DNA of 64,000 nucleotides from Diospyros lotus (lineage: Eukaryota > Streptophyta > Magnoliopsida > Ericales > Ebenaceae), in the NCBI RefSeq assembly GCF_014633365.1, contig NC_068347.1:21102433-21166432 (forward strand), in the 5' to 3' direction. The position numbers and the translations under genes were made by a program. Each line of letters starts with the position of its first letter. Position 1 is the first letter of the stretch. Positions 716 to 62,890 of this stretch are shown here, piece after piece. Under the pieces are notes generated by a model. The model made no database searches, had not been told where the DNA came from, and saw only the letters and a list, made by a program, of their open reading frames with translations.

Positions 716-3320
716 TCATTCATCAGTTAAATCAAAAACATCCTTTGTAATAACATTTTTGTTAATAAGAGACAAAAATGCTTGAATTCGAGTTATATAT
801 GGTGTTTCCCATTCATGTGCAATATCATATCGATATTTATGCTAATTGCGTGCAACGGGAGAAATTGGTGAGCCTAATTTAAGAAATACCTGACAAAATG
901 ATAAGACAATATTGTTAGTACCAAATTTATATTAACATAATTATAGGAATATATAAATAAATTATTAAATAATAATATCTATACAAAATGACAATCATCC
1001 ACAAAACCAAAATAATTCTATGTTGTATAACTGAAGGGGCGGATGATCTCAATGGAAGGTAGGTAAGACACTGCATTCAAGATAAATGAACCAACACAAC
1101 ATTATATTTTGAAGCAATCAAATGACTCATGTCAGGTAAAGTCATCCAATGTTGAGGAGGTGCAACACACTCAAAGCAAGAAAGTGCGTACATTAACTCA
1201 TCTACACGCATAGAAGATCCGTATAACTCTATATACTCATCATGAAAAGTATGCAACTCTCCAATCAAATTTATATGAATATCCCTCAAGTTGTGCTCAC
1301 TCATTCCAAGTAACGCAGCAATAACACGAAATCCACAATGTTCATTCGACTCCACATTAACAATATTATGTATAAAATGATGTATATTTGATGGGAATGA
1401 AATATCATAGCCTAACAATCTGTGTTTGACACTGGTACAATAAAGTTACCTTCATTCAGTGTTTTAACTAAGCTCTGTGTTGTTGGAGATGCACTATCAT
1501 GAATAGACTGTACTATTTCAAAATATGATGGATCACATCGAGTGGATGTATCAACCTGAATTTTATTCTTTGATGATGGCTTACCTTTTGTTCGAACTTT
1601 CACACTTGGTGGGATCAATGAAGTCGTAGCTGGATCTATTAATTCTCTCAACTTTTGTTTTAATACGATTTTACCTCCTACTGGTTCTGACTAAAATATA
1701 TTATATATACTTTCTAACTCTGGATCAATAGTTAACACTGAGGACACATCAACAGTCTGCACTAAATCTAATTTTGTCCAATAAGGGTGCACAAATGATA
1801 AAGGAATTGGTTGTCCCTCCATCATTAATTCTACAATTTCATGTGCACAAGGTAAACCATGTATGCTTCTTATCACACATTCACATGCAACCTTATCCAC
1901 CCCAATTTTTTGAACTATCTATGTTTGCTTTAACACCATATTCATTGCATTTCTTGATATAATACATCTCAATTCTTTAAAAATTTATGGCTTGAAATTA
2001 TGTTGTACCAACATTAAACTCTTCTCAAAAGACCCCTTGATCTCGGTATGTTGCAACTCAATAAGGGAATTGATAATTTTCCATGATGACTCAAAGTCAC
2101 CTTGAGATGATCCCAGATATCTCTTCAACTTCGCATGGGCACTCTCAGCCCTTTGAATAAAAGCATAAGCAGTATTAGATTAATAAGAGATTAATTAGAG
2201 ATATTATAATAAAAATAATAGCAACAACATTTGAGTTTAGTAAAGAATACCTGTTAGTAGTAACATTGCCAAAATGTAATACTTTATTTGTCCACGCTGT
2301 AATAAAATTTTCTTTATAATCATTCAGTCATGTCTTTCTCACATAATCAAGTGCTTCTTCATATGCATGATACTCAACCATTAAGTCACAACGAGGACGT
2401 TCATACTCAATCTCATTAAAGGAAAAAACAAGAAGATTCCACCGTAACATAAACTTCTCCCATGTCTCATTTCTATAAAAATATTTCTTACACTTAGCAA
2501 GTACATTTTTTTTTATATATGCCACCTACATAATAAGGTCATCGTATTGCATTCATCAATGCTAATTCTCTATCAGTGACAACTACTCCTAGAAATGTAT
2601 TAGATCCCATCACATTCTTTAATCTCTTCATAGCCCATGTGTAGTTATCCTCGTATTCATGGTTCATAAATACAAATGCAACAAGAAAAGTTAACTCAGT
2701 GGATGTCACACCAACAACCTCAAGAAGTGGATACCTATACTTGTTAGTTTTGTATGTACAGTCCATTATTAAGACATGTGGAAATACTTTTAATAAATCT
2801 ATAGACATCGGATGAGCCCAAAATAAGTCTGTAATACAATTTATTGATCCATCACTTCTATGCCACTCCACATAATTACATTCTCTTAATTTCTTCATCA
2901 ACTGTTGCATTTGTGATCTACCACCTTTCTCAATAAGTTTGTATCTTTGACGCGTATTATATATAGTTTTGATAGTAGTAACGTTATTCTCATCCTCTGC
3001 CTTTAAGCTCATCAAAATATTTCTAGGTTTCACGAGATTCTCAGACATTGTTTTTAAAATTACTCTCTCTTTTTCTGTAAGCCTCCCTGCATATGAATAA
3101 CCCTCCAGTTGAACTACTAGTGCATGGTTGTGCAGTCCACATACAACTTTCAACTCCCACCGCTCAAATTTCATACCAAGTAATTCAAATGGACAATCAC
3201 ACTTTTTTGAACCTATGTACTTGCGTTTTAATTCTCTTATTATTTCTTCTTTCCTTTTTGATGGTCTATACTTTCCACTACGTTAACAAGCAAGACAAAC
3301 TCTAGGTTTTTTTCCAAGAC
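716..3320 (-). pseudogene. MULE transposase fused to an OTU-type cysteine protease domain, decayed
   Basis: Read on the minus strand. A FAR1/MULE-like N-terminal part (CDCPFELLGMKFERW) is followed by a MULE transposase core (2539-3174) with the acidic motifs MDCTYKTNKY and VTDRELALM. Next come an alpha-helical part (2328-2525), a SWIM zinc finger (CEC...CAH, near 1850-1880), and an OTU-like domain (1077-1418) with the cysteine motif HCGFRVIAALLGM and the block HLIASKYNVVL. Two introns remain readable: 2151-2250 and 890-984, both GT-AG. The last exon is 716-889. Damage: stop at 3283-3285, a small deletion near 2530, stops at 2328-2330 (for Trp), 1691-1693, 1077-1079 and 842-844, and a frameshift near 1412-1430. 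A transposase with an OTU-like extension suggests an autonomous Mutator-like element. No terminal inverted repeats were found. Domain calls come from motif reading. Confidence 0.8.
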
Positions 3321-3384
3321 CCCCAGATTCTGAACTCTTGATCACACACTTGCTTGTGAACAATATAGCATTATAAACTTTTGT

Positions 3385-4496
3385 CATACACTTGCTTGTG
3401 GAGGGCATTTTTTCCACCAAGAAAACAATTGCAAAAATTTACAAAGTGGACTTTATTAGCCAACGTTGTTTAAGGATGTGCATCAAGTTTGCTCCTCTTG
3501 TGATAGATGTCAAAAGCTAGGAAGCCTTACAAAAAAACACATGATGCCATTGCATCCCATTTGTGTGCTCGAAATCTTTGATTGTTGGTGTATAGATTTT
3601 ATGGGACCTTTTGTGAACTCCTTTGGGTACGAATATATTTTGCTAGCCGTTGATTATGTGTCCAAATGGGTGGAGGCCATACCAACTAGAACCAATGATC
3701 ATAAGATTGTAATGAAATTTTTGAAAGAAAATATTTTTAGCCATTTTGGGATGCCGCGAGCAATTATAAGTGATGGAGGATCTCATTTTTGTAACAAACC
3801 TATGGCAGCATTAATAAAAAAATATGGGGTAATTCATAAGGTGTCATCCCCATACCATCCTCAAACAAATGGTCAAGCCGAACTCGCCAATAGGGAAATT
3901 AAGAGGATCCTTGAAAAGACCGCCAGCTCAAACCGAAAGGATTGGTCCCTCAGGTTAATTGATGCTCTTTGGGCGTATCGAACTACATATAAAACCATTT
4001 TAGGCATTTCTCCCTATTGGATTGTCTTTGGGAAGCCTTGTCACCTACTAGTGGAAGCAGAACATAAAGCTTATTGGGCCATTCGTCGAATCGATGAAAA
4101 TATGAATGAAGTAGGTCTCAATAGAAGGCTTCAAATAAATGAGCTTGAGGAAATTAGAAATGAAGCATTTGAAAACGCCAAGCTATCCAAGATCCACATG
4201 AAAGAGCTATATGACAAGCATATCAATCGAAAAATTCTTCAAATCGAACAACGTGTGCTTCTTTATGATTCTAAGCTCCATATATTTCCAGGAAAATTAA
4301 AGTCTAGATGGATTGGTCCATTCAAAATTCGTTCCATCTCAAGCCATGGGGTATGTGAGATAGAAAATCTCGAGTCAGGGCAAATTCTTAAAATCAATGG
4401 GCATCGGTTAAAACCTTATCTTGAGATGTCATTTGGAGAAGAAGATATGGATCTCATTGATCTAGAAAAGGGGAATAATTCAACAAATAGATATAG

Positions 4497-4561
<65 letters not shown>

Positions 4562-4569
4562 ATCGATAA
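3385..4569 (+). pseudogene. Ty3/gypsy integrase fragment (Athila/Tat-like lineage)
   Basis: Integrase of an LTR retrotransposon, which would insert the cDNA copy into the genome. The N-terminal zinc-binding region is visible as GGH around 3400-3408, then CSSCDRCQK. The core shows the DDE triad in CIDFMGPF, SDGGSHF and QTNGQAELANREIK. The C-terminal region contains GKLKSRWIGPFKI and INGHRLKPYLEM. The frame is open from 3460 to 4569, but the last ~20 codons are isoleucine read from an AAT microsatellite, so real homology ends near 4440. Upstream, a conserved Trp codon is a stop (3457-3459), and two frameshifts lie between 3408 and 3450. Reverse transcriptase and LTRs are missing: this is a broken-off 3' pol piece adjoining the MULE pseudogene. 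Confidence 0.85.
4501..4560. repeat. (AAT)n microsatellite, about 20 units
   Basis: Uninterrupted ATA/AAT triplets. A second tract of the same triplet lies at about 4999-5048, directly before the LOB-domain pseudogene. Confidence 0.95.
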
Positions 4570-4998
4570 ATAAAAAAAAAGGGGCCGACCTAGATAGGGT
4601 CAATTATTCTCCTTCCCTCTTGGCACGATTTTCACCAAACCCTCACCCTCAAATCTCTGCATCGCCTCTGCCTCGCCGCTATCTTGTCTCTTCGTTGTCT
4701 CACCGATCGGATCCACATCTGTCAGTCCACGTCTTTGATATCCCCCTCAGTCGACTTCACAGTGAGCCCTAAATCATTAGCATTTTTATTTTTATGTAGT
4801 TGTTTATTTATTTCTCATTTTCTCTCATAAATCTAATACCTCTCTCTCCTTCACCTGGACTTTACATCTGTATGTGTGTCTCACCAACATCATCATCACC
4901 AACTCCAAACCTCAAACCCCAAATCCCAACTCCCAACTCCCAATCCTCTTCAACCTCAGCCGCTTCGAGCCCCTGACAAATATATAAATATAAATATA
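4570..4998. other. Pyrimidine-rich spacer
   Basis: C/T-rich sequence with many CTC and CCTC runs, reminiscent of a plant 5' leader. No reading frame is supported. It lies between two AAT microsatellites. Confidence 0.3.
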
Positions 4999-5002
4999 CC
5001 AA

Positions 5003-5048
<46 letters not shown>
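4999..5048. repeat. (AAT)n microsatellite upstream of the LOB-domain pseudogene
   Basis: About 15-16 AAT units end four bases before the ATG at 5053. Confidence 0.9.
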
Positions 5049-5051
<3 letters not shown>

Positions 5052-5052
5052 C

Positions 5053-5583
5053 ATGCCAGGAACCGGCTCCCCATGTGGTGCTTGCAAGTTTTTGAGAAAA
5101 CAATGTATCCAAGGGTGCATCTTTGCCCCTTACTTCTCATATAATCAAGGACATGATGATTTTGTCGCCATTCACAAGGTGTTTGGTGCTAGTAATGCTT
5201 CAAAGCTCTTGGCCCAACTTCCAGAAGATGACTGTGCTTAGGTTGTATTTTCACTCTGGTACGAAGACCAAGCCAGGATTCATGACCCCATATATGGCTG
5301 TGTTTCCCACATACTTACCCTCCAACAACAGATCATCTATTTGCAAGCCCAGCTTGCGTTGATGCAGGAATCTTTGCTTGCTAGCTCGTGTCCAATCGCG
5401 CAAGTTGTTCCAAATTGGAATCTCCTAGAAACCAGTTTTGGACATCTTCCAAATGGTGGACATGAAGCGTTTTTCATGGATAATCCAGACCCTGTTAATG
5501 CCAGCAACAATCCCTGGCTAGATGGAGAACTTGAAGTTGTAGATGAATTGGGAGCTGTTGTTTTCGGCCGAAATTATCAATGA
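5053..5583 (+). pseudogene. LOB-domain (LBD) transcription factor pseudogene, one premature stop
   Basis: LBD proteins are plant-specific DNA-binding developmental regulators. From ATG 5053 the frame shows the zinc-finger-like C-block C8-x2-C11-x6-C18-x3-C22, then the GAS block ([17 protein letters not shown], residues 37-53). TAG at 5239-5241 (codon 63) interrupts it. The same frame continues to TGA at 5581-5583 with EDQARIHDPIYGC and the glutamine/leucine-rich helix LQQQIIYLQAQLALM, then a variable acidic tail. It resembles the class that includes LBD18/LBD30-type proteins (KVFGAS, ARIRDPIYGC). No intron is visible in 531 bp, and A-rich sequence lies downstream (5725-5745), so a retroposed copy is possible. 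Apart from the stop the frame is fully open, which suggests a fairly recent loss. Its LBD identity is secure; the retrocopy idea is inference. Confidence 0.85.
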
Positions 5584-6084
5584 GCATTTGGAAAATTAGA
5601 TTACTAAGTGTGCATTTCTTGTGTGTATTTTATGACTGCTTTCTTACATGTTTTGTAACCTTGGATATCTGTTTATTATGACTTTATGTATTTCACGATT
5701 ATGCTTTCTTCTAATTCAGTTTACAAAAAAGAAAAAGAAAAACCTGCCTTCTTCCTGCATTGTTGATCACTAGGTACGCCTAATCTCAACTCTTTTTATT
5801 GTGTATCAAGCCAGTGCCGTTTTCAAGTATACCTTGTATCTACAATTTATTATGTTTGCGAACAGTACACAATTCTGTTGGGGGGGGTGAGTTTTAATTA
5901 AGAATGATGGTTTAAAAAAATATATAATAATAATAATAATTCATGTGTAAACATGCAAACTGTTTATGCGTTGTAGTTAGTTTTTTATTTTTAAGTGGTC
6001 ATATGGTTATTGATATTGCTAAGTGCATAATAATAAAAAATAAATAAATATATATATATATAATAATAATTTATTTATTTTAAT
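5584..6084. other. Non-coding, AT-rich
   Basis: Possible 3' UTR-like sequence with an A-rich stretch (5725-5745), a G run (5880-5887), and short AAT and TA simple repeats (5928-5940, 6025-6080). No gene is seen. Confidence 0.4.
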
Positions 6085-6090
6085 TTGGAT

Positions 6091-6219
6091 ATCCGGATGC
6101 CAAGCTCGCATATTCGAATGAAACGCCTATATCCGGATATCAATATCTCTTGTTCGGATGCAACGAGAATCTATCCGGATGCTATTATGCATATTCGGAT
6201 ACATATAGTCCTATTTAAA
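6091..6219 (+). promoter_or_regulatory. Six palindromic ATYCGRAT boxes phased at ~21 bp, upstream of a TATA box
   Basis: Boxes start at 6091 (ATCCGGAT), 6112 (ATTCGAAT), 6131 (ATCCGGAT), 6152 (GTTCGGAT), 6173 (ATCCGGAT) and 6193 (ATTCGGAT). Start-to-start steps are 21, 19, 21, 21 and 20 bp. A TATA-like TATTTAAA lies at 6212-6219, 12 bp past the last box, so a transcription start near 6245 is plausible, ahead of the transposon protein pseudogene. Box positions and spacing are read directly; promoter function is inferred. Confidence 0.6.
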
Positions 6220-6663
6220 CCCATCCAAACAGTCAACACCTCATTTGAACGCGCTCATTTTTGTTCTTGGCCGAACCAAAACCCTTCAAGAATCTCACCA
6301 AATCCATTGCCAAATCACCATTAAGCATCGGTGTTCAATCTAGGGGCATCGTTGCATCATTCGAAGGAGCAAGCCAACTCAAGAAAGCCGAGCATCACCG
6401 ATTAATCGAAGCATTAGGGCTTGGGAGTATTCGGATATCACAAAGAGGTAATCCGAAACTCTCGCTTTCTTTTAAGTTCGGGTTTGGTGATTGAGAAGGG
6501 AGAATAGATTGATTAAAGGATGGAGGAGTGTTGTTGAGATATTGTGGAATGGATAGTTTCAGATGAGCTTAGGAAGAAGAAGGACTGTGCACACTACCTG
6601 TTCGACGAAAAGCCGAGCCTGATTTCCAAACATAAAAGTCCCATAAATTGTAGCTTCTCGGCT
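6220..6663 (+). other. Presumed leader of the transposon protein gene
   Basis: Sequence between the TATA-like box and the likely original start codon at 6664. Two short open frames (6261-6494 and 6085-6324) overlap in different frames and show no recognisable domain. One more box-like pair is present near 6429 (ATTCGGAT, then ATCCGAAA). Confidence 0.35.
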
Positions 6664-7783
6664 ATGGCACCTAGGACCAATTTTTCATAGCATCTAAGGG
6701 AAAGTTCTAAGAGACCAAGACCCGAAGAAGAAACCCCTTTAGATGATGCCAATCCCCTATACTCGAACCCCAGATTCATTAGTCTTGAAGCCCAATAGAA
6801 ATACACTGAGGGATTTGCTAAAAGGCCAGTTTTGTGAAAGAGGGATAAAATTATCTGATTATGCTGAACCCTCTTATGAGTTACAGTCGTTGATAACAAG
6901 TAGAGGATGGCAGACTTGGGTAGACTACGAATATAAGGCTATAGTGCCATTAGTAAAGGAGTTTTATTCCAACATTATAGCAAACAATGATGACTCGGGG
7001 CAAAAATGTATAAAGACTCTGGTTAGGAAGATTGAGTTGCAGTTAACACCCCATGGTATTGCTGAGATGTTTGAGTTGCCTAGAGAAGTGCCTATTCGGA
7101 TGCCTGAAGAACAAGATCCTAAGTTAGAAAAAACAGATCTAGCAAACTTATTGGCTGATAAGGAGGGTGTAGTGTGGCTAGGACCAAGATTCCCTAAGGC
7201 TCGCTTGTCTCCTAAATGTAATGTTTTGCATAGGCTAGTCTGCTCTCATTTTTTACCTCAGGCATATGTGTCATCAGTATTTGTTGATCATGCTATGTTT
7301 ATTGGGAAGCTTTTGAAGGGAGTGCATGTGGATTTGGCCGAACATATTTTTGATATCATTGATTCAGCTGGTCGAACCCCAGCTGGGAGCGGTGGGTCAC
7401 CCTTCGGTGGGCTTATCACATGGTTCTTAGTAAAGAACAGAGTTAAGGAAAAGAGAGGGGTTGAAATAATTAATCCGATGGCACGGATCTGTTTAGCCTC
7501 AGCACATAGGAGTGTGGGACAGTTAAAAAGGAGTGAAAATCCAATGCAAAAAGAGGGTAACCCATCAGAAGGATTAGAAACTGATCCTCAGGCAGCCACG
7601 AGTAAGAGAAATTGACAGTCTATTGAGGGGTTATGCAAACTAATGCAAGAAATGCAGAGCACGCAAGAAGAAATGTATTTGCATCTACTACAGGGGTAGG
7701 ACAGGATAGTTTCAGAGCTGCAAGAAGTCAAAGAAGAACAAAAGAGACTACGTGAATTGGTTAACAGCTGGGCCAATGATTAA
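6664..7783 (+). pseudogene. 'Putative plant transposon protein' domain ORF, decayed
   Basis: This resembles the plant transposon protein domain found as an extra ORF in plant retroelements; its biochemical role is unknown. The likely start is ATG 6664 (MAPRTNF), then an acidic stretch and NPRFISLEAQ, typical of the domain's beginning. Stops in this frame are at 6688-6690 and 6796-6798. A frameshift near 6826-6835 moves coding to the frame of 6743-7615, which carries RGWQTWVDYEY, EFYSNIIANN, LLKGVHVDLAEHIF and GGSPFGGLITWFLVK. After TGA 7613-7615 the same frame still codes a glutamine/glutamate-rich coiled-coil tail (LQEVKEEQKRLRELVNSW), broken at TAG 7697-7699 and ending at TAA 7781-7783. The regular palindrome arrays flanking it (6091-6200 and 8415-8848) suggest a single element. 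Confidence 0.7.
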
Positions 7784-8229
7784 TCCGACAACTTCGTGTC
7801 ATTCTATTGCAAGAACTAGCCGTTTTCTCTCTCATTTTCCTAGCTCCAGTGCCCAGTACCTCATGATTCTGGGCTGTTAATTCTTTTGGATCATTTAATC
7901 CTATTTTGTAATGGATTAAGTCTGACTTGTTTACAACTTTGACGCATTTTTGTTCATTACAGCAGGAATTTTTGTGCTCACTTTTGTGTGTTAATTACAT
8001 CATTAGCTCATGTATGGTTGTCTCCATTCAAAAAAAAAAAAAAATGATTGAACCAATAGAATTTTTAAATTACATAGCAACTGCCCAATGAGTAAGTTTT
8101 GTTGTGTGGGTGAAATTACTTATCATATCACTTTTGTGCCCCACAGTGGAAAATTCATCACCCAAGTTGAGTTTGTGGTTAAGCATAGCCCAGGAAAGAA
8201 TTTAAATTGCTAAGGGTCTAGCAATATTC
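7784..8229. other. Non-coding 3' part of the element
   Basis: No gene. T-rich sequence resembling the region between the last ORF and the polypurine tract of a Ty3-type element; contains an A run at 8031-8044. Confidence 0.35.
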
Positions 8230-10030
8230 AAGTTGGAGGGTGTGATTAGAGGTTAAATATGTCAAAGATTATCATATTTCCTTCCATTTTCTATCTAATA
8301 AAAATGATAATTTGGCATGTTTATTTATTTTTGCAGGGGCTTCTCGAAATTTTGACTAAGCTATGTAAATTACGCAAATGATCAAAGTCATATCTGGGTG
8401 TGTGGAGAGAGACCATCCGGATGTTACCCCGCACATCCAGATGACCATCCAAGGCCATCCGGATATGAAGATGCTGCATCTGGATGTCTCTCAGCACATC
8501 CGGATAAAAATGAAGAAGCTGCCAAGAGAGATATTCGGATACCTCACAACGTATCCAGATATGAAGAGTATATATTCGGATGTCCCTCAGCACATCCGGA
8601 TACAAGAGAAAAATTCCAAAGAAGATACATCCGGATGTCATACAACATATCCGAATATTAATGAAGTCTCATCCGGATGCGTCAATGAAGTATCCGGATA
8701 CAAGACACAAGACTCGCCCAACACATTCGAATACCCCACAACGTATCTGGATATCAGAGAGAAGAGGCAAAGATTGACATCCGGATACTCCACAACGTAT
8801 TCGGATATTAGCCAAACCATATCTGGATATTACATTACATATCCGGATACATAAGGAATAATTGCACAAAGCACACCTTCGCACGATGGGAACAAATTGA
8901 GTACATAAATGCTTTACATCTTAAAAGTGAGCATGAGTGGAAAGTCTTTTACAGAGCATGGGCAAAGGAATGATGAGGAATAATGAGAAATGAAAAAAAA
9001 AAGAGCTGTGGAGAGATTTGAAAATGGGGAGTTCTATTAGAAAAGAAAAAAGGGAAAAGATGGAAAGAAATAAAAATGAGGGCTAATGCAGAACCAAAAA
9101 AGAAAAAAAAAAAAAGAGATATTTTTTGGGATTTTTTTGAAAGTTCGTTCTGCAGATCGTGACTATCATCAAAATCTCCTTGCCAGTTACCTTGAAGCAG
9201 AGACTCAACTATTATCAATTTGCCTGGTTATTTTGTTTTATTTTCTTTATTTCCTTGCAATGTTCTTCTCTTCCAATTTTGATTAAGCAGATTTGTCTTG
9301 TCTTTGTTCAAGAAACTTCATCTTAAACATTTTCAGTTATACAAGTTCATCCGCACCCTTGATTTTCAGAGTTAAGTTCTTGACACTTTAAACACTGCAA
9401 ATTACACATTGAAGGCTTACATTCTGTAATTTTATTTTTCTTCCATACTTTGTAATCCTTTGCATATTATAATAGAAATTTGAGGCTGAGTAATTCAGTG
9501 TTATATATTGTCTAGAATAACCAAACCTCATATGCATAAATAGAAATTTGATTAGCTTAGGTGTTGTGTGTGCATTGAATTTTTGGATTTAAATTATAAG
9601 CATGAGCCTAGCCTAGAGTCTCCATATCATGTATGGAGGTTGCTAAAATTGGAGATGGCGTCATTCTTAGATTCAAGTGAATTATTTTTCTGCATGTTGA
9701 ATGTATCTTAATTTATGGTAGTTATTTGATTTGGACTTTTTCATATAATTTATGTAAATTATTAAATCTAGGGCTATCATCACCTTGCAAACGTGCCCAG
9801 ATTTGTGTTTCAGTTATCTAACTATTGGGAAATCATGGGATTGGTATTGAATTTGCTGTGACTCAAGGGTCTCTACATTTAATTAGCATTTATTTCATGT
9901 AACTCTTACCTTAATTAAACACACTGTTGTTCAAATTTAAAAGAAATTTCTGGTAAAATTATTTCCGTCCATAGATAATCTCCCAGTGAATCGACCTGGA
10001 CTCATCTAGAAATTAAATTTGCGCTACACG
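8230..10030 (+). mobile_element. Probable 3' LTR with polypurine tract; right edge uncertain
   Basis: The purine-rich AAGTTGGAGGG (8230-8240) is directly followed by TGTGATTAG, the layout of a polypurine tract plus LTR start. The segment holds the paired palindrome array (8415-8848). Near 9970-10040 it carries CCCAGTGAATCGACC and CACTTGTACACTCACGAG, text of the type seen near LTR ends of plant Ty3 elements. No clean terminal CA or target duplication was found, so the right end is approximate and the class is inferred. Confidence 0.4.
8415..8848. repeat. Nine paired palindromic-box modules (ATYYRRAT, 12-13 bp spacer, ATYYRRAT)
   Basis: Modules span 8415-8442, 8478-8505, 8533-8560, 8574-8601, 8629-8656, 8671-8699, 8725-8752, 8779-8806 and 8821-8848. 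Each has two 8-bp boxes of the type ATCCGGAT, ATTCGGAT, ATCTGGAT or ATCCAGAT. Eight modules have a spacer of exactly 12 bp (20 bp start to start); the sixth has 13. Spacers share a loose C-rich pattern such as CCTCACAACGT or CCCTCAGCAC. Module starts are 63, 55, 41, 55, 42, 54, 54 and 42 bp apart. All figures were counted directly on the sequence. Confidence 0.9.
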
Positions 10031-10589
10031 TTCACTTGTACACTCACGAGTATAAATACCTCACTCTTATTTTCAATAAATAGTGTACTAATTGTTGAGT
10101 GAGTATTGCAGTCACCTCGCCCCCAAACTTAGCCTTGCCTTTACCTGGAATGAAGAGAAGCAAGAGTGAGTCACAAGACTCAGCAAGCATATAAGAAATG
10201 AAAGGCTGATAAGAGTATGAGAACTAAAGAGTAATTTGCACCCCACGTGCTATAACCATACATCATATGCTCATGAATCACATGACAGATATACAAAAAG
10301 GTAGCATAATAAAATATGTACATACTGGTTATTAGGGCCCACATAAGACACTTGGCATCCAAGTCCCTATCACAAACTTGTCATTACCCTGAAAGCCAAT
10401 GTATAAGTAACATATCAAGCCATAGCTCACTCAGGCCGGCGCGACTGGAACCCAGATTAACACGTACAAATATGATATGCAAGCTGTGTCCTTAAATTCG
10501 ATACACCAGCCAAAACTGCAAACCCTGTAATCCAAATCATCAATCCGCATCTGTAAACCCATCACAACACACCCACACGACGCCAGTAA

Positions 10590-11815: not shown

Positions 11816-12395
11816 ATTTCCAGCAAGATTTTCTCCAAAAATATTACACAACTCTTCCATTTCCAAGCTATTGCCCACCCATTTAATCTCTATGCCTCGA
11901 CAAAGCACAACATTAAGGAAACTAACCATTAAATCTTAGTGAAAAAGAAGAGGAAGGAACTTCCATAAGCAAAGGAAAATGAACAGGAAGCTTGCAAGGA
12001 GAATGAGTTTGCAAAGAAAAGGAGAAGAGAAGCTTACAAAGGGAAAGAGATACTTGCCTAATGGAAGAAGAAAATCTCCCTAGAAGCTAGCTGCCAAACA
12101 ACTTCTTCTTCTTCTTCTATTTCTTCTTCTACCTTTGCTCATTGCTGAGCCTTTGCAAGTTCTGCAAAAATCCTCTCTTCTCTCTATATCTCTCCAAATG
12201 TATATAGGCAAGGCAAGAGACACTAATTAATGGCCTAGACGCATGCCCCGACCACATCAAAATTCTCTACCACCATATCAAAATCAAGATAATGGCCTCT
12301 GAAACTCGCTTCCAGAAATGCATTCTGTCAAATCTAAGAAAATACCCGAATGGCCTGACCCGAATCCAGATTTGAGAGGGTTTAATGAAAAACTG

Positions 12396-12798: not shown

Positions 12799-13081
12799 AT
12801 CCGAATCACACACACCTAATTCCAATCAATCTTTCCTAATTCAAATCAATCACCCCCAATTCGAATCAATCACGCTTAATTCGAATCACACTCACCAAAT
12901 CTCATCCAATTTCACAATGATTCGAATCACTATTATCCTATTCGAATCTCACTCACAAAATTCACTAAATTCCCACAAGCTTTTTGAATCCACTATGAAG
13001 GCTTCGAAGCACACACACAAACACTTGGTCAATTTCAATTTTGACTTCTTGCATCCGAATATTCCAAGATCCTATTCAAAT
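12799..13081. repeat. 20-bp-phased array of ATTCGAAT / ATCCGAAT boxes
   Basis: Boxes start at 12799 (ATCCGAAT), 12819 (ATTCCAAT), 12839 (ATTCAAAT), 12859 and 12879 (ATTCGAAT), a degenerate one at 12899, then 12920 and 12940 (ATTCGAAT). Weaker boxes follow at 12982 and 13002, then 13053 (ATCCGAAT) and 13074 (ATTCAAAT). The first five steps are 20 bp each. In the left half the spacers are also similar (CAATCACNC), so part of this is a true 20-bp tandem repeat. Confidence 0.75.
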
Positions 13082-20639: not shown

Positions 20640-21600
20640 ATGGATCGATAACATGACTAGTTTCACCATGCTCAGTAATCTAATAAGGTATTTGTGGTAT
20701 TGAAGACTCATATTTTAAATTTATTTTCTTACCTATACCACCCTGTTTGATGAATGCTTCTTCTAAGAAGATTATATGTTTAGCAACCACAACTCTTGGA
20801 TCATTTGGAAAATCGACATAATACCCTAAACAATCTTTAGGATATCCCACAAAACGCCATTTCTCATATCTTGGCCCCAACTTCTTTATTTTCAACCTTT
20901 TAACATAAACCGGACAACTCCAAATTCTAACATATTTAAGACTCGGTGGTCTCCCAACCCACATCTCATATGACGTGGTCGAAACAGATTTAGTCAGTAC
21001 TCGATTTAACAAATAAATTGCTGTAAGAATGGCATAACCCCACAAGAAAATTGGCAAATCCATGTATCTAATCATAAAACGTACCATGTTTAATAAGGTT
21101 TGGTTCCTACGTTTTAGCCACTCCATTCAGTTGTGGTGTAGTTGGTGGAGTTAATTGTGGAACAATACCACACACCTTTAGATAATCAACAAATTTAGTA
21201 TTCAAGTATTCACCTCTTTGATATGATCGAAGAATCTTGATACTCTTTCTTGTTTGGTTTTCTACTTCCACCTTGAATTCTTTGAACTTTTTAAAGACTT
21301 CAGAGTTATGCTTTATTAAGTACATGTAACCCTACCGAGATAAATCATCGGTAAAAGTCACAAAGTAGACATAACCACCTTGAGCCATAATATTTATAGG
21401 CCCACATATATCAGAATGTAGTAACTCAAGCAACTTAGTGGCTCTTTTCCCTTATCCAATAAAAGGAGACTTAGACTTTTTTTCGAGAATACAAGACTCA
21501 CAAGTTGGCCCAGGTATAGAACCAAAATTGGAAATAAATCCACGATGAGCCAACTTTGTCAAGCAATTCTCCTTGATATGACTCAGCCAAAGGTGCTATA
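20640..21600 (-). pseudogene. Copia-1 integrase region
   Basis: Minus strand. After the HLRLSH-type zinc-binding start come LLHSDICGP (first Asp), ILRSYQRGEYL (normally SDRGGEYL; second catalytic Asp lost) and PQLNGVAKT. Here one extra base shifts the frame and removes the catalytic Glu; the frame continues as RRNQTLLNMVRFM. The C-terminal part has the copia block ...YEMWVGRPPSLKYVRIWSC at 20680-21126 (GRPPSLKYVRIWSC; KWRFVGYPKDCLGYYV). In-frame stops lie at about 21338 and 21454. Confidence 0.85.
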
Positions 21601-22528
21601 GTTGCATAGGATTAATGTGATTATTCTGAGAATGTTTCTCATTTACCGTGGTATTAGCAACTATTTGTTGACTTTTTTCACATTCACGTGTTTCCAAGAA
21701 ATGCAAACCATTTACCTTACAGCTTTGCCCACACTTATTACCATAATGAATGTAACAACAATTGTTGGCAAAAGAGAATTCATAATTGTGCTGTACAAGC
21801 TTAGGAATAGACATTACATTCCTTATAGTGTTTGGTACATGTAAACAGTCATATAAATACAGCATGTGACCAAAAGGTAAAAGTACAGAAGTAGTTCTAA
21901 TAGCTAATGCATCAACTGTTACTCTATTTCCAACCTTTAGAATCACCTCACGCTTCCTAATTATCCTACTTCGATTGAGATTCTGCACAAATAAATAGAT
22001 ATGAGAAGTAGCACTAGAATCAACAATCCAAGAAGTAGGGTATTGACCAATCGTAAGATCAGTCTCAATCACACACAAGGAAAAAGAAATACCTTGACCT
22101 TCCTGATGCTTTACCTTTAAGCTTCTGAGATAGATAGGGAAATTCCTCTTCCAATGACCTTTCTTCTGGCAAAAATAACAATTACCCTCGCCAACTACCT
22201 CCTTGCCTTTCGACTCTGTCTTACCTATGTCCTTCCTCACCCCAAGAACATTTCTTTTTCTTTTTCCTAGATTTAGGTTTTCTTTGAGAAGAAGACGAGA
22301 CGACGACAAGAACTCCTTTGCCTCTACCCTGCATCTGTGATTGTGCTGTTGTCAATATATTTAACAATTCGGGGAGAGAATACTCAATTTTATTTATATA
22401 AAAACGAGTGATAAAGGAAGAGAACGAGTCTGGCTACGATTGTAGGATTAGATCAATCTTAAGATGAGGATCCATGGGAAATTCCAATACATCAAGTTGA
22501 CCAATCCAATTGATTATATTGATGACGT
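21596..22528 (-). pseudogene. Copia-1 gag C-terminus and protease
   Basis: Minus strand. The gag zinc knuckle reads CYFCQKKGHWKRNF, with the last ligand Cys changed to Phe. The protease motif reads WIVDSSATSHI, where copia proteases normally have DSGA, so the active-site Gly is Ser. The 22309-21596 frame is open over 237 residues. Upstream gag (INWIGQLDVLEFPMDP, 22440-22528) is separated from the gag N-terminus by a solo LTR. Confidence 0.85.
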
Positions 22529-60744: not shown

Positions 60745-62890
60745 AATCTCTTCTTCAAGAAACCCATTGAGGAACGTCGTTTTGATGTCAATTTGCTAAA
60801 TCTCATAGTCATAGTACACAACAATAGTTAACATCATCCTGATTGACTTAACGTCGCGACTGGCAAAAATATCTTATCATAGTTAACTCCTTGACTCTAA
60901 TGGTATCCTTTAGCTACCAATCGGGCCTTATAAGTTGAAATCTTCCCATCAACACTAATTTTTCTCTTGAGGATCCATTTACACCCTATAGGAACAATTC
61001 CCTCAAGTAGATCTACTAAGGTCCAGACCTGGTTAGAGTACATAGACTCTGTCTCCGATGTATCATGTCTAATAGGGTTTAACCACACCATTAAGTTGTG
61101 GTGTATACAGAGGAGTTAACTATGAAACAATACCACACTCCTTAAGATAATCAACAAACTCAGTACTCATGTATTCACCTCTTTGATTTGATTGAAGAAT
61201 TTTGATACTCTTTCCTTTTGGGTTTTCTACTTCCGTCTTGAATTCTTTGAACTTTTTAAAGACTTTAGACTTGTATTTCATCAAGTACATGTAACCATAC
61301 CTAGATAGATCATCTGTAAAAGTTACAAAATAGACATAACCACCCTAAGCCATAACATTTATGGGCCCACACACATCAGCATGTATTAACCCCAACAATT
61401 CAATAGCCATTTCCTTTTGTCCAACAAAGGAGACTTGGTTATTTTCTCGAGAATACATGACTCACAAGTTAGCCTAGGTTTAAAACCTAAATCGAAAATA
61501 AACCCAAGCTAAGCTAACTTGGTTAGCCAACTCTCGCCAATATGACCTAGCCTAAGGTGCTGCAATTGCATAGGATTAATGCGATTATCTCGAGAACATT
61601 TATCTTTTGCCATGGTACTAGTATCAACAAGTATTTACTGACTATGTTCACACTCATTTGTTTCCAAGAAATATAGACCATTCACTATTATAGCTTTGCC
61701 CACACACACATTACCATAATGTATGTAACAACAATTGTTGGCAAAAGATAATTCATAATTCCGCTGTACAAGGTTAGGAATAGACAAAACATTCCTTATA
61801 GCATTCAGTACATGTAAATAGTCATATAGATACAACACATGTCTAGAAGGTAAATGTATAGAAGTAGTTCCAACGGCTAATGCAACAACTATTGCTCTAT
61901 TTCCAACCTTCCAAACCACTTAAGGCTTCCCAAGCATCCTACTTCGATTGAGATCCTGTGTAGATAAACAAATATGAGATGTAGCACTAGAATCAACAAT
62001 ATAAGAATTAGGGTACTGACCAATCATAAGATTAGTCTTAATAACACACAACGAAGAAGAAATACCTTGACATTCCTTATGCTTGACCTTTAAGCTTATG
62101 AGATAGTCAGGGCAATTTCTCTTCCAATGACTTTTTTTTAGTAAAAGTAATAGTTACCCTTGCCAACTACCTCTTTGCCTTTTGACTCAGTCTTTCCTAC
62201 ATCCCTCCTTGCCCTAAGAACCTTTCTTTTCTTCTTCCTAGGTTTAGGCTTCCTTTGAGAAGAAGATGAGGCAATGACGAGAACCCCTTCTTTGCCTTTA
62301 CCCTTCATCTATGACTGTGTTATCGTTAACATATTCAACAACTTGGGGAGAGAACACTCAATTTTATTTATATGAAAGTAAGTGATAAAGGAAGAAAATG
62401 AGTCTGATAATGATTGCTGAATAAGATCAATCCAAATATGAGGATCCATGGGGCAATCTAATACATCTAACTGACCAATCCAATTGATCATATTGATGAC
62501 ATGCTCTCTTACATCTGACTCTTCCATCATCTGAGCCCGAAATAGCTTCTTCGATATCTCATATTGAGCTGTCTGACTATGCTCACCATAAAGGTCCCTC
62601 AGATTCTGAATCATGCTTGCAGCACTAGGAAAATTCTCGTGATGACGCTGCTTGTCATTGAACATAGGGGCGAGAATATAGTTACGAGCTCTCATGTCAT
62701 GATCTCTCAAAGTCTCCCAAGTAAATCTATCCTTTTTAATCACATCATCAGGGATAGATATAGGAGGACTAAGAAATAAGACATCGTCTATTCGCTCCAT
62801 ACTGAGCACTATCTTAAGATTACGAAACTAGTTGGAAAAATTAGGGCTAGTAAGCTTATTTGTATCCAAAATATGTGATAACAGATTCAT
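60745..62890 (-). pseudogene. Copia-2 gag-pol, internally deleted
   Basis: Same family as copia-1, minus strand. Gag (62309-62890; VLDCPMDPHIWIDLIQQS), zinc knuckle remnant KRNCPDYL with a stop before it, protease/pre-integrase (61635-61919), integrase N-terminal half (61100-61560), then directly the start of reverse transcriptase (60897-61091; WTLVDLLEGIVPIGCKWILK and KARLVAKGYH), showing that the integrase C-terminal half (about 650 bp in copia-1) is deleted. The reverse transcriptase core is also missing: the element joins LTR sequence at the solo LTR insertion site. Confidence 0.85.

Follow-up and report, generated by a model that had tools for sequence, protein, structure and literature searches.

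What could read a palindrome that recurs 19 times within 434 bp of plant DNA? The question is posed by a 64,000-nucleotide stretch of the Diospyros lotus genome (contig NC_068347.1, positions 21,102,433 to 21,166,432 of the forward strand; hereinafter, the window), in which 19 boxes of the type ATYYRRAT lie between positions 8415 and 8848. A preliminary description had recognised here nine modules, each consisting of two boxes with a fixed spacer. All nine modules are present at the distances reported, and the 18 boxes were confirmed, but a single box at 8457 had been omitted. The distances hold as well, but they belong to one continuous series (20, 22, 21, 20, 35, 20, 21, 20, 35, 20, 22, 21, 33, 20, 34, 20, 22, and 20 bp from box to box), of which the pairs are only one possible grouping; neighbours are either 20-22 or 33-35 bp apart. 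Because a pyrimidine precedes and a purine follows the box in 19/19 cases each, the actual unit is the 10-bp box YATCCGGATR, and the array, which we denote array B, occupies positions 8414-8849 of the plus strand.

The boxes had been described as staying palindromic, which is true of 10 of the 19: these are perfect 8-bp palindromes, nine of them exactly ATCCGGAT, whereas in the other nine, C>T or G>A changes (7 to 4 among the box changes of the array) stand without compensation. When any two mismatches to ATCCGGAT were allowed, array B yielded nothing but exact boxes and variants whose C>T or G>A changes are confined to the inner four positions, compared with 24 matches of this kind among the 156 found elsewhere in the window, outside array B and a second array discussed below (array A). 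The regularity far exceeds what local composition produces: in 2000 dinucleotide shuffles of the array B stretch, the mean was 0.5 boxes (maximum 4) with no pairs at 20 bp, compared with the 19 boxes and 8 such pairs observed. Across the whole window, the pattern of two boxes separated by 12 bases was found 12 times, 8 of these inside array B, against an expectation of 0.02. Each intact box holds CG and CHG cytosines. The CpG observed/expected ratio is 0.97 in array B and 1.77 in array A, compared with 0.53 and 0.38 in the flanking parts of the LTR (long terminal repeat), and the CpG density of array B (20 per 442 bp) is matched by 50 of 1272 windows.

The array belongs to a mobile element. 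When the Diospyros lotus assembly (630 Mb, 43 contigs) was searched with the array, at least 60 match rows were obtained, a figure in which the window is counted too and one copy may account for several rows, and 38 stretches were taken from these rows. Of the 38 loci, 27 begin to resemble the window at 8240-8245, and in 23 the resemblance ends at 10108-10122; in 7 it extends upstream toward or into an accessory gene, and in 4 it starts elsewhere. These edges, which are good to a few bases, delineate a 3' LTR at approximately 8241-10115 on the plus strand and thus place array B, whose first box lies 174 bp from the LTR start, in the U3 part. A purine-rich stretch adjoining the LTR edge (8230-8240, plus strand) is the probable polypurine tract. 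The assumption that the array is borne by the element is thereby borne out: it sits in the LTR and is present in many genomic copies. Two of these, L032 and L031, located 15.5 kb apart on C12 with 22 differences over 861 aligned positions, appear to be the paired LTRs of a single element.

All stop-free pieces of at least 60 aa between positions 3400 and 10100 were scanned against Pfam, and the only matches were an integrase core, a LOB domain, and Transposase_32, along with one below-cutoff match of an isoleucine run. The integrase part (rve, 5e-16) lies at 3466-4569 on the plus strand, and no reverse transcriptase was detected downstream of it among these pieces, which indicates the gene order of Ty3/gypsy elements; integrase is the last pol domain seen and is followed by Transposase_32 and then by the LTR. 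The element is thus an LTR retrotransposon of the Ty3/gypsy superfamily. A Transposase_32 sense open reading frame (ORF) between pol and the 3' LTR is an Athila-type feature, and because Transposase_32 has been reported as a sense extra ORF of a sunflower Athila element (PMC11728184), the element probably belongs to the Athila lineage, judging by its domain content. A fragment of a MULE transposase occupies 2539-3174 on the minus strand, directly ahead of the integrase part, where the retrotransposon seems to have been truncated at its 5' side.

The accessory gene (6664-7783, plus strand; Transposase_32, PF20167, 6.9e-21) is located between arrays A and B. Its open part spans 6743-7615, with stops interrupting the earlier and later parts, and the N-terminal homology begins near 6664. 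A protein search with its product identified three relatives. The gene is also present in six fetched pieces of the same family (L031, L045, L054, L061, L064, and L072). Differences at codon positions 1, 2, and 3 number 130, 137, and 213 for all six copies, and 83, 86, and 146 for the diverged L064 and L061 together; this excess at third positions shows that the gene evolves as a protein.

Array A (6090-6201, plus strand) consists of six boxes, at 6091, 6112, 6131, 6152, 6173, and 6193, which are 19-21 bp apart; the box at 6152 has its first base altered, and a seventh box-like word, ATTTGGAT, adjoins the array at 6083. Eleven bases past array A lies the TATA-like sequence TATTTAAA (6212-6219, plus strand), a candidate internal promoter. 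Behind array B, no TATA-like sequence was found close by, the next being at 9502 and 10051. The occurrence of array A in copies was judged on seven upstream pieces, four of which (L068, L072, L069, and L070) carry a homologous array; L071 shares 38 bases with the 3300-8300 region, and L073 and L074 share nothing with it. Although L069 and L070 are only 70-72% alike to the window at array A, the array is retained in them, and copies that are about 70% alike in this region keep both arrays. All four copies carrying array A have TATTTAAA or TATTAAAA behind it; in L070, one further changed box stands between the array and the TATA-like sequence.

The boxes are constrained while the spacers drift, as the preliminary description had maintained, and this is seen both within array B and across copies. 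In the eight dyads of array B, 11 of the 128 box cells deviate from the commonest base, all by transitions, compared with 31 of the 96 spacer cells, ten of them by transversions. Thirty of the 38 stretches were aligned (L054, L064, L065, L066, and L067 were excluded as truncated, and L038, L043, and L062 for want of a recognisable LTR start). In this alignment, transversions affect 53 of 4277 box cells (1.2%) and 513 of 7025 spacer cells (7.3%), and are less frequent in the boxes in 30/30 copies; the outer letters of the box differ in 42 of 2138 cells (2.0%), compared with 524 of 3941 spacer A/T cells (13.3%), so that change is about six-fold lower in boxes by either measure, in tests that treat related copies as independent. 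Inner positions differ in 581 of 2139 cells, only 34 of these being transversions. When the data were split by letter, with box A/T cells taken as in the window, the rate was lower in boxes in only 15 of the 30 copies because boxes already decayed in the window were counted, which splitting by box position resolves. The box letters help to anchor the alignment and might flatter the conservation, but an alignment-free count agrees: 36 of the 38 stretches hold at least nine boxes of the exact or C>T/G>A type, and among the 748 boxes with at most two mismatches, 658 are of these types, 630 of them preceded by a pyrimidine and followed by a purine; some of these matches are due to chance, an equal length outside the array having given 79, of which 19 belong to the C>T/G>A type. 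Departures from ATCCGGAT among the 748 boxes comprise 551 inner C>T or G>A (282 to 269), 50 other inner changes, and 57 changes in the outer A/T letters. Taken together, these comparisons indicate that the boxes look to be under selection.

Compensating change between the two halves of a box, an idea raised in the preliminary description, did not materialise: symmetric double variants account for 38 of 108, with a third expected by chance (p 0.68). Most variants stem from C>T or G>A changes at CG and CHG sites with no matching change in the other half, a pattern of sites apparently selected in the active lineage and then decaying, after insertion, through deamination of presumably methylated cytosines. 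Neighbour gaps in the copies peak at 20, 21, and 22 bp (237, 109, and 91 cases) and at 33, 34, and 35 bp (34, 37, and 32), but the interval length was changed in 69 of 487 box intervals (14.2%), compared with 16.0% in the upstream and 23.6% in the downstream LTR, so the constraint on spacing is weak at best.

The spacing of 20-22 bp is indeed close to two helical turns. As for the proposed placement of the boxes on one face of the DNA, array B is in phase at a pitch of about 10.7 bp, where the resultant is 0.88, and out of phase at 10.5 bp, where it falls to 0.13. None of 5000 orders of the same gaps equalled the observed phase, which was equalled in 93 or 216 of 5000 trials when the long gaps were drawn at random. 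Of 28 near-complete copies, 27 have their best pitch within the range of 9.5 to 12 bp at 10.55-10.85 bp, and only 3 have a resultant above 0.55 at a pitch of 10.5 bp. Permuting the order of the gaps gives a value as high as the observed one in less than 5% of trials for 18 copies and more often for the other 10. Given that the copies share descent, their phase data are suggestive only, and the location of the boxes on one face of the DNA has the same suggestive status.

We consider it probable, albeit well short of certain, that the two arrays form a twin set of promoter elements through which a dimeric DNA-binding protein acts on both the LTR and an internal promoter. Under this scenario, which we derive from the sequence and its copies, each YATCCGGATR would be a binding site for a protein with two-fold symmetry, and many sites roughly two helical turns apart would let dimers line up and act together. 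The U3 cluster, array B, would serve the main gag-pol promoter and array A, just before the TATA-like sequence, the putative internal promoter of the accessory gene, so that one factor could switch on both. Host methylation of the CG and CHG cytosines within the sites could block binding, and silenced copies would then lose their sites through C>T decay. Because the site is short and exact and occurs some 25 times, its binder can be sought directly, and the question of what reads the palindrome and whether methylation blocks the reading becomes testable. A host factor is the larger bet for the reader and is favoured over the Transposase_32 protein.

That the accessory protein of the element itself reads the boxes and so shields or activates its element, in the manner of the VANC proteins of VANDAL transposons, is a special case of the twin-array scenario that we deem possible but unlikely. 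The position of the gene between the two arrays, its presence in six family pieces, and its evolution as a protein all fit such a role; the relative encoded by the sunflower Athila element is predicted to carry a nuclear localization signal (PMC11728184), and the targets bound by VANC are short motifs arrayed in non-coding regions of the elements that encode it (PMC5735166). However, no DNA-binding fold was recognised in the protein: the structure model is poor (mean pLDDT 51.5), and a PDB fold search with this poor model gave no match at E 0.001. Furthermore, the box is unchanged in copies whose accessory genes are about 20% different, whereas VANC target repeats are described as diverging rapidly (PMC10398659); Sireviruses are reported to carry such arrays both with and without an env-like gene (PMC2829016); and five of the six accessory gene copies differ from the window by indels of a length not divisible by three. 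Relatives of the protein were also looked for in viral contigs, and none was confirmed. A specific mechanism in which a Transposase_32 dimer binds the array in the LTR and the one before its own promoter and forms a positive loop competing with CG/CHG methylation, through activation or anti-silencing, is rather doubtful. Were it true, the system would be a retrotransposon counterpart of VANC, and the arrays offer a defined target for asking what Transposase_32 does.

It is improbable that the palindromes act in RNA, with hairpins between neighbouring boxes serving as small-RNA substrates or in the genomic RNA. The sense RNA does fold far better than dinucleotide shuffles (z -8.6), and in maize Sireviruses, an excess of small RNAs has been found to map to palindrome clusters, as recounted in PMC10760457. 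This strong folding, however, is mainly due to the self-complementarity of the boxes: when the boxes were kept and the spacers shuffled, z dropped to -1.7 (all spacers together) or -3.1 (each alone), which still leaves a smaller excess. Pairing between neighbouring boxes is at the level of shuffled boxes (125 vs 124.9 of 140), so that the simple RNA-hairpin reading fails. In addition, C>T and G>A changes are about equally frequent, although only C>T would preserve G-U pairing in the sense RNA.

A neutral minisatellite with functionless boxes, of the kind common in untranslated regions of retrotransposons, is a very improbable explanation. Array B contains a partial internal duplication (8457-8607 vs 8553-8705, 72% match), and tandem repeats near the 3' LTR are reported to be common in Retand elements (PMC11963269), but we reject the neutral satellite on the strength of the conservation of boxes relative to spacers, described above, and of the separate second array at the accessory gene.

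Between the integrase and array A lies a copy of a LOB-domain (LBD) gene (5053-5583, plus strand; Pfam LOB matches of 2.4e-17 and 3.3e-8 to its two halves), with an in-frame stop interrupting the window copy. Among the seven upstream pieces, the segment is present in L068 and, as far as its fetched stretch reaches, in L072, whereas in L070 the sequence passes from the integrase to the later linker with the segment missing; most simply, it would be a captured host gene that has spread with part of the family. The element thus contains a copy of a transcription factor gene, and LOB proteins bind G/C-rich palindromes. That the captured protein reads the boxes is nevertheless hardly credible: L070 has the integrase, array A, and the same box but no LOB segment, so the boxes do not depend on LOB, and a LOB protein as the necessary reader is ruled out. 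Furthermore, the frame is broken in the window, L068 and L072 have just 36 and 41 open codons around the recognisable part, and no report of a LOB protein with a TCCGGA or CCGGA site was found in literature listings. Finally, although the 158-aa frame at 8378-8854 is open, the possibility that array B is a coding repeat of this frame is negligible and is ruled out by boxes falling in all three frames, and a protein search with the frame found no relative at E 1 or better.

Several other palindromes and repeats came to light. A different array at 12799-12947 of the window consists of boxes that are ATTCGAAT or one change away from it, spaced by 20, 20, 20, 20, 41, and 20 bp, the first five being flanked invariably by A and C; a TATA-like sequence on the minus strand, at 12207, lies about 590 bp away, and the array is perhaps the LTR control region of another element. 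The segments 21113-22526 and 61078-62500, 40 kb apart, are 81% alike; the former holds a minus-strand Pol_BBD frame, and the latter overlaps a Retrotran_gag_2 frame. In viral contigs, the exact pattern of two boxes separated by 12 bases occurs in 21 stretches, 18 of which contain one exact pair accompanied, within 300 bp, by no more than two additional degenerate boxes. The other three, L002 (6308-6480), L007 (3148-3326), and L017 (5166-5344), each hold a cluster of eight exact ATCCGGAT at irregular spacings of 6-73 bp; these clusters are apparently unrelated to the plant array. A plant mobile domain lead was discarded because the MORC1 promoter 'DOWN' motif, CATGCAGTTT, as given in the available text (PMC9899485, PMC7156037), is unlike the box.

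How, then, does the twin-array arrangement compare with known systems? Tandem repeats along with an accessory ORF in the 3' part are shared with Retand and other Ty3/gypsy elements, but the Retand-type repeats lie between pol and the 3' LTR, and the accessible accounts tell of no conserved palindrome in them (PMC11963269, PMC7264820), whereas the element described here has an array within the LTR. The target arrays of VANC are similar in being dense accumulations of a short motif, through tandem repeat formation, in non-coding parts of a transposon. The VANC21 motif of Arabidopsis VANDAL, YAGTATTAY (PMC5735166), is unlike the box in not being palindromic, and VANC targets are reported to diverge rapidly (PMC10398659); moreover, VANDALs are DNA transposons, and VANC binding is demonstrated, whereas protein binding to the boxes described here is a prediction.

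The closest resemblance is to the Sireviruses, Ty1/copia elements that have been reported to carry palindromic repeated motifs (RM), most of which have a CGG-CCG core (Bousios et al. 2010, PMC2829016). According to that report, one cluster of motifs, 300-500 bp long, begins 200-400 bp past the edge of the LTR, in its upper half and upstream of the TATA box, and another precedes the env-like gene, with at least 8 palindrome copies per element; the clusters form predicted CpG islands, and the motifs are conserved amid diverged flanks. A regulatory role was proposed and an internal promoter supported, with no common binder named in the available part of the account (PMC2829016). Similarly, many copies of one palindrome are present here (19 + 6 boxes), in one LTR cluster and one cluster before the extra gene (array A; Transposase_32 in place of the env-like gene), with boxes conserved amid diverged flanks; the CpG ratio of both arrays exceeds that of the LTR flanks. 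Array B starts 174 bp past the LTR edge, compared with 200-400 bp, is 434 bp long, compared with 300-500 bp, and has no TATA-like sequence close behind it. The core CCGG of the box holds CCG and CGG overlapping, whereas in the Sireviruses, as far as they are described, the halves are mostly apart and are lacking in Tnd-1. The other differences are the contiguous 10-bp palindrome with its regular 20-22/33-35 bp spacing, and the host, which is a Ty3/gypsy element with a Transposase_32 gene rather than a Ty1/copia element. In the open-access literature searched, we found no paper on such arrays in Athila-type elements. Thus, the layout of palindrome clusters is known from Sireviruses, and what appears to be new is the same design, in the same two places, in a second superfamily, Ty3/gypsy, as assigned from its domains. 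Its occurrence in both superfamilies would suggest that these plant retrotransposons are switched on by a mechanism that they share or have reached by convergence.
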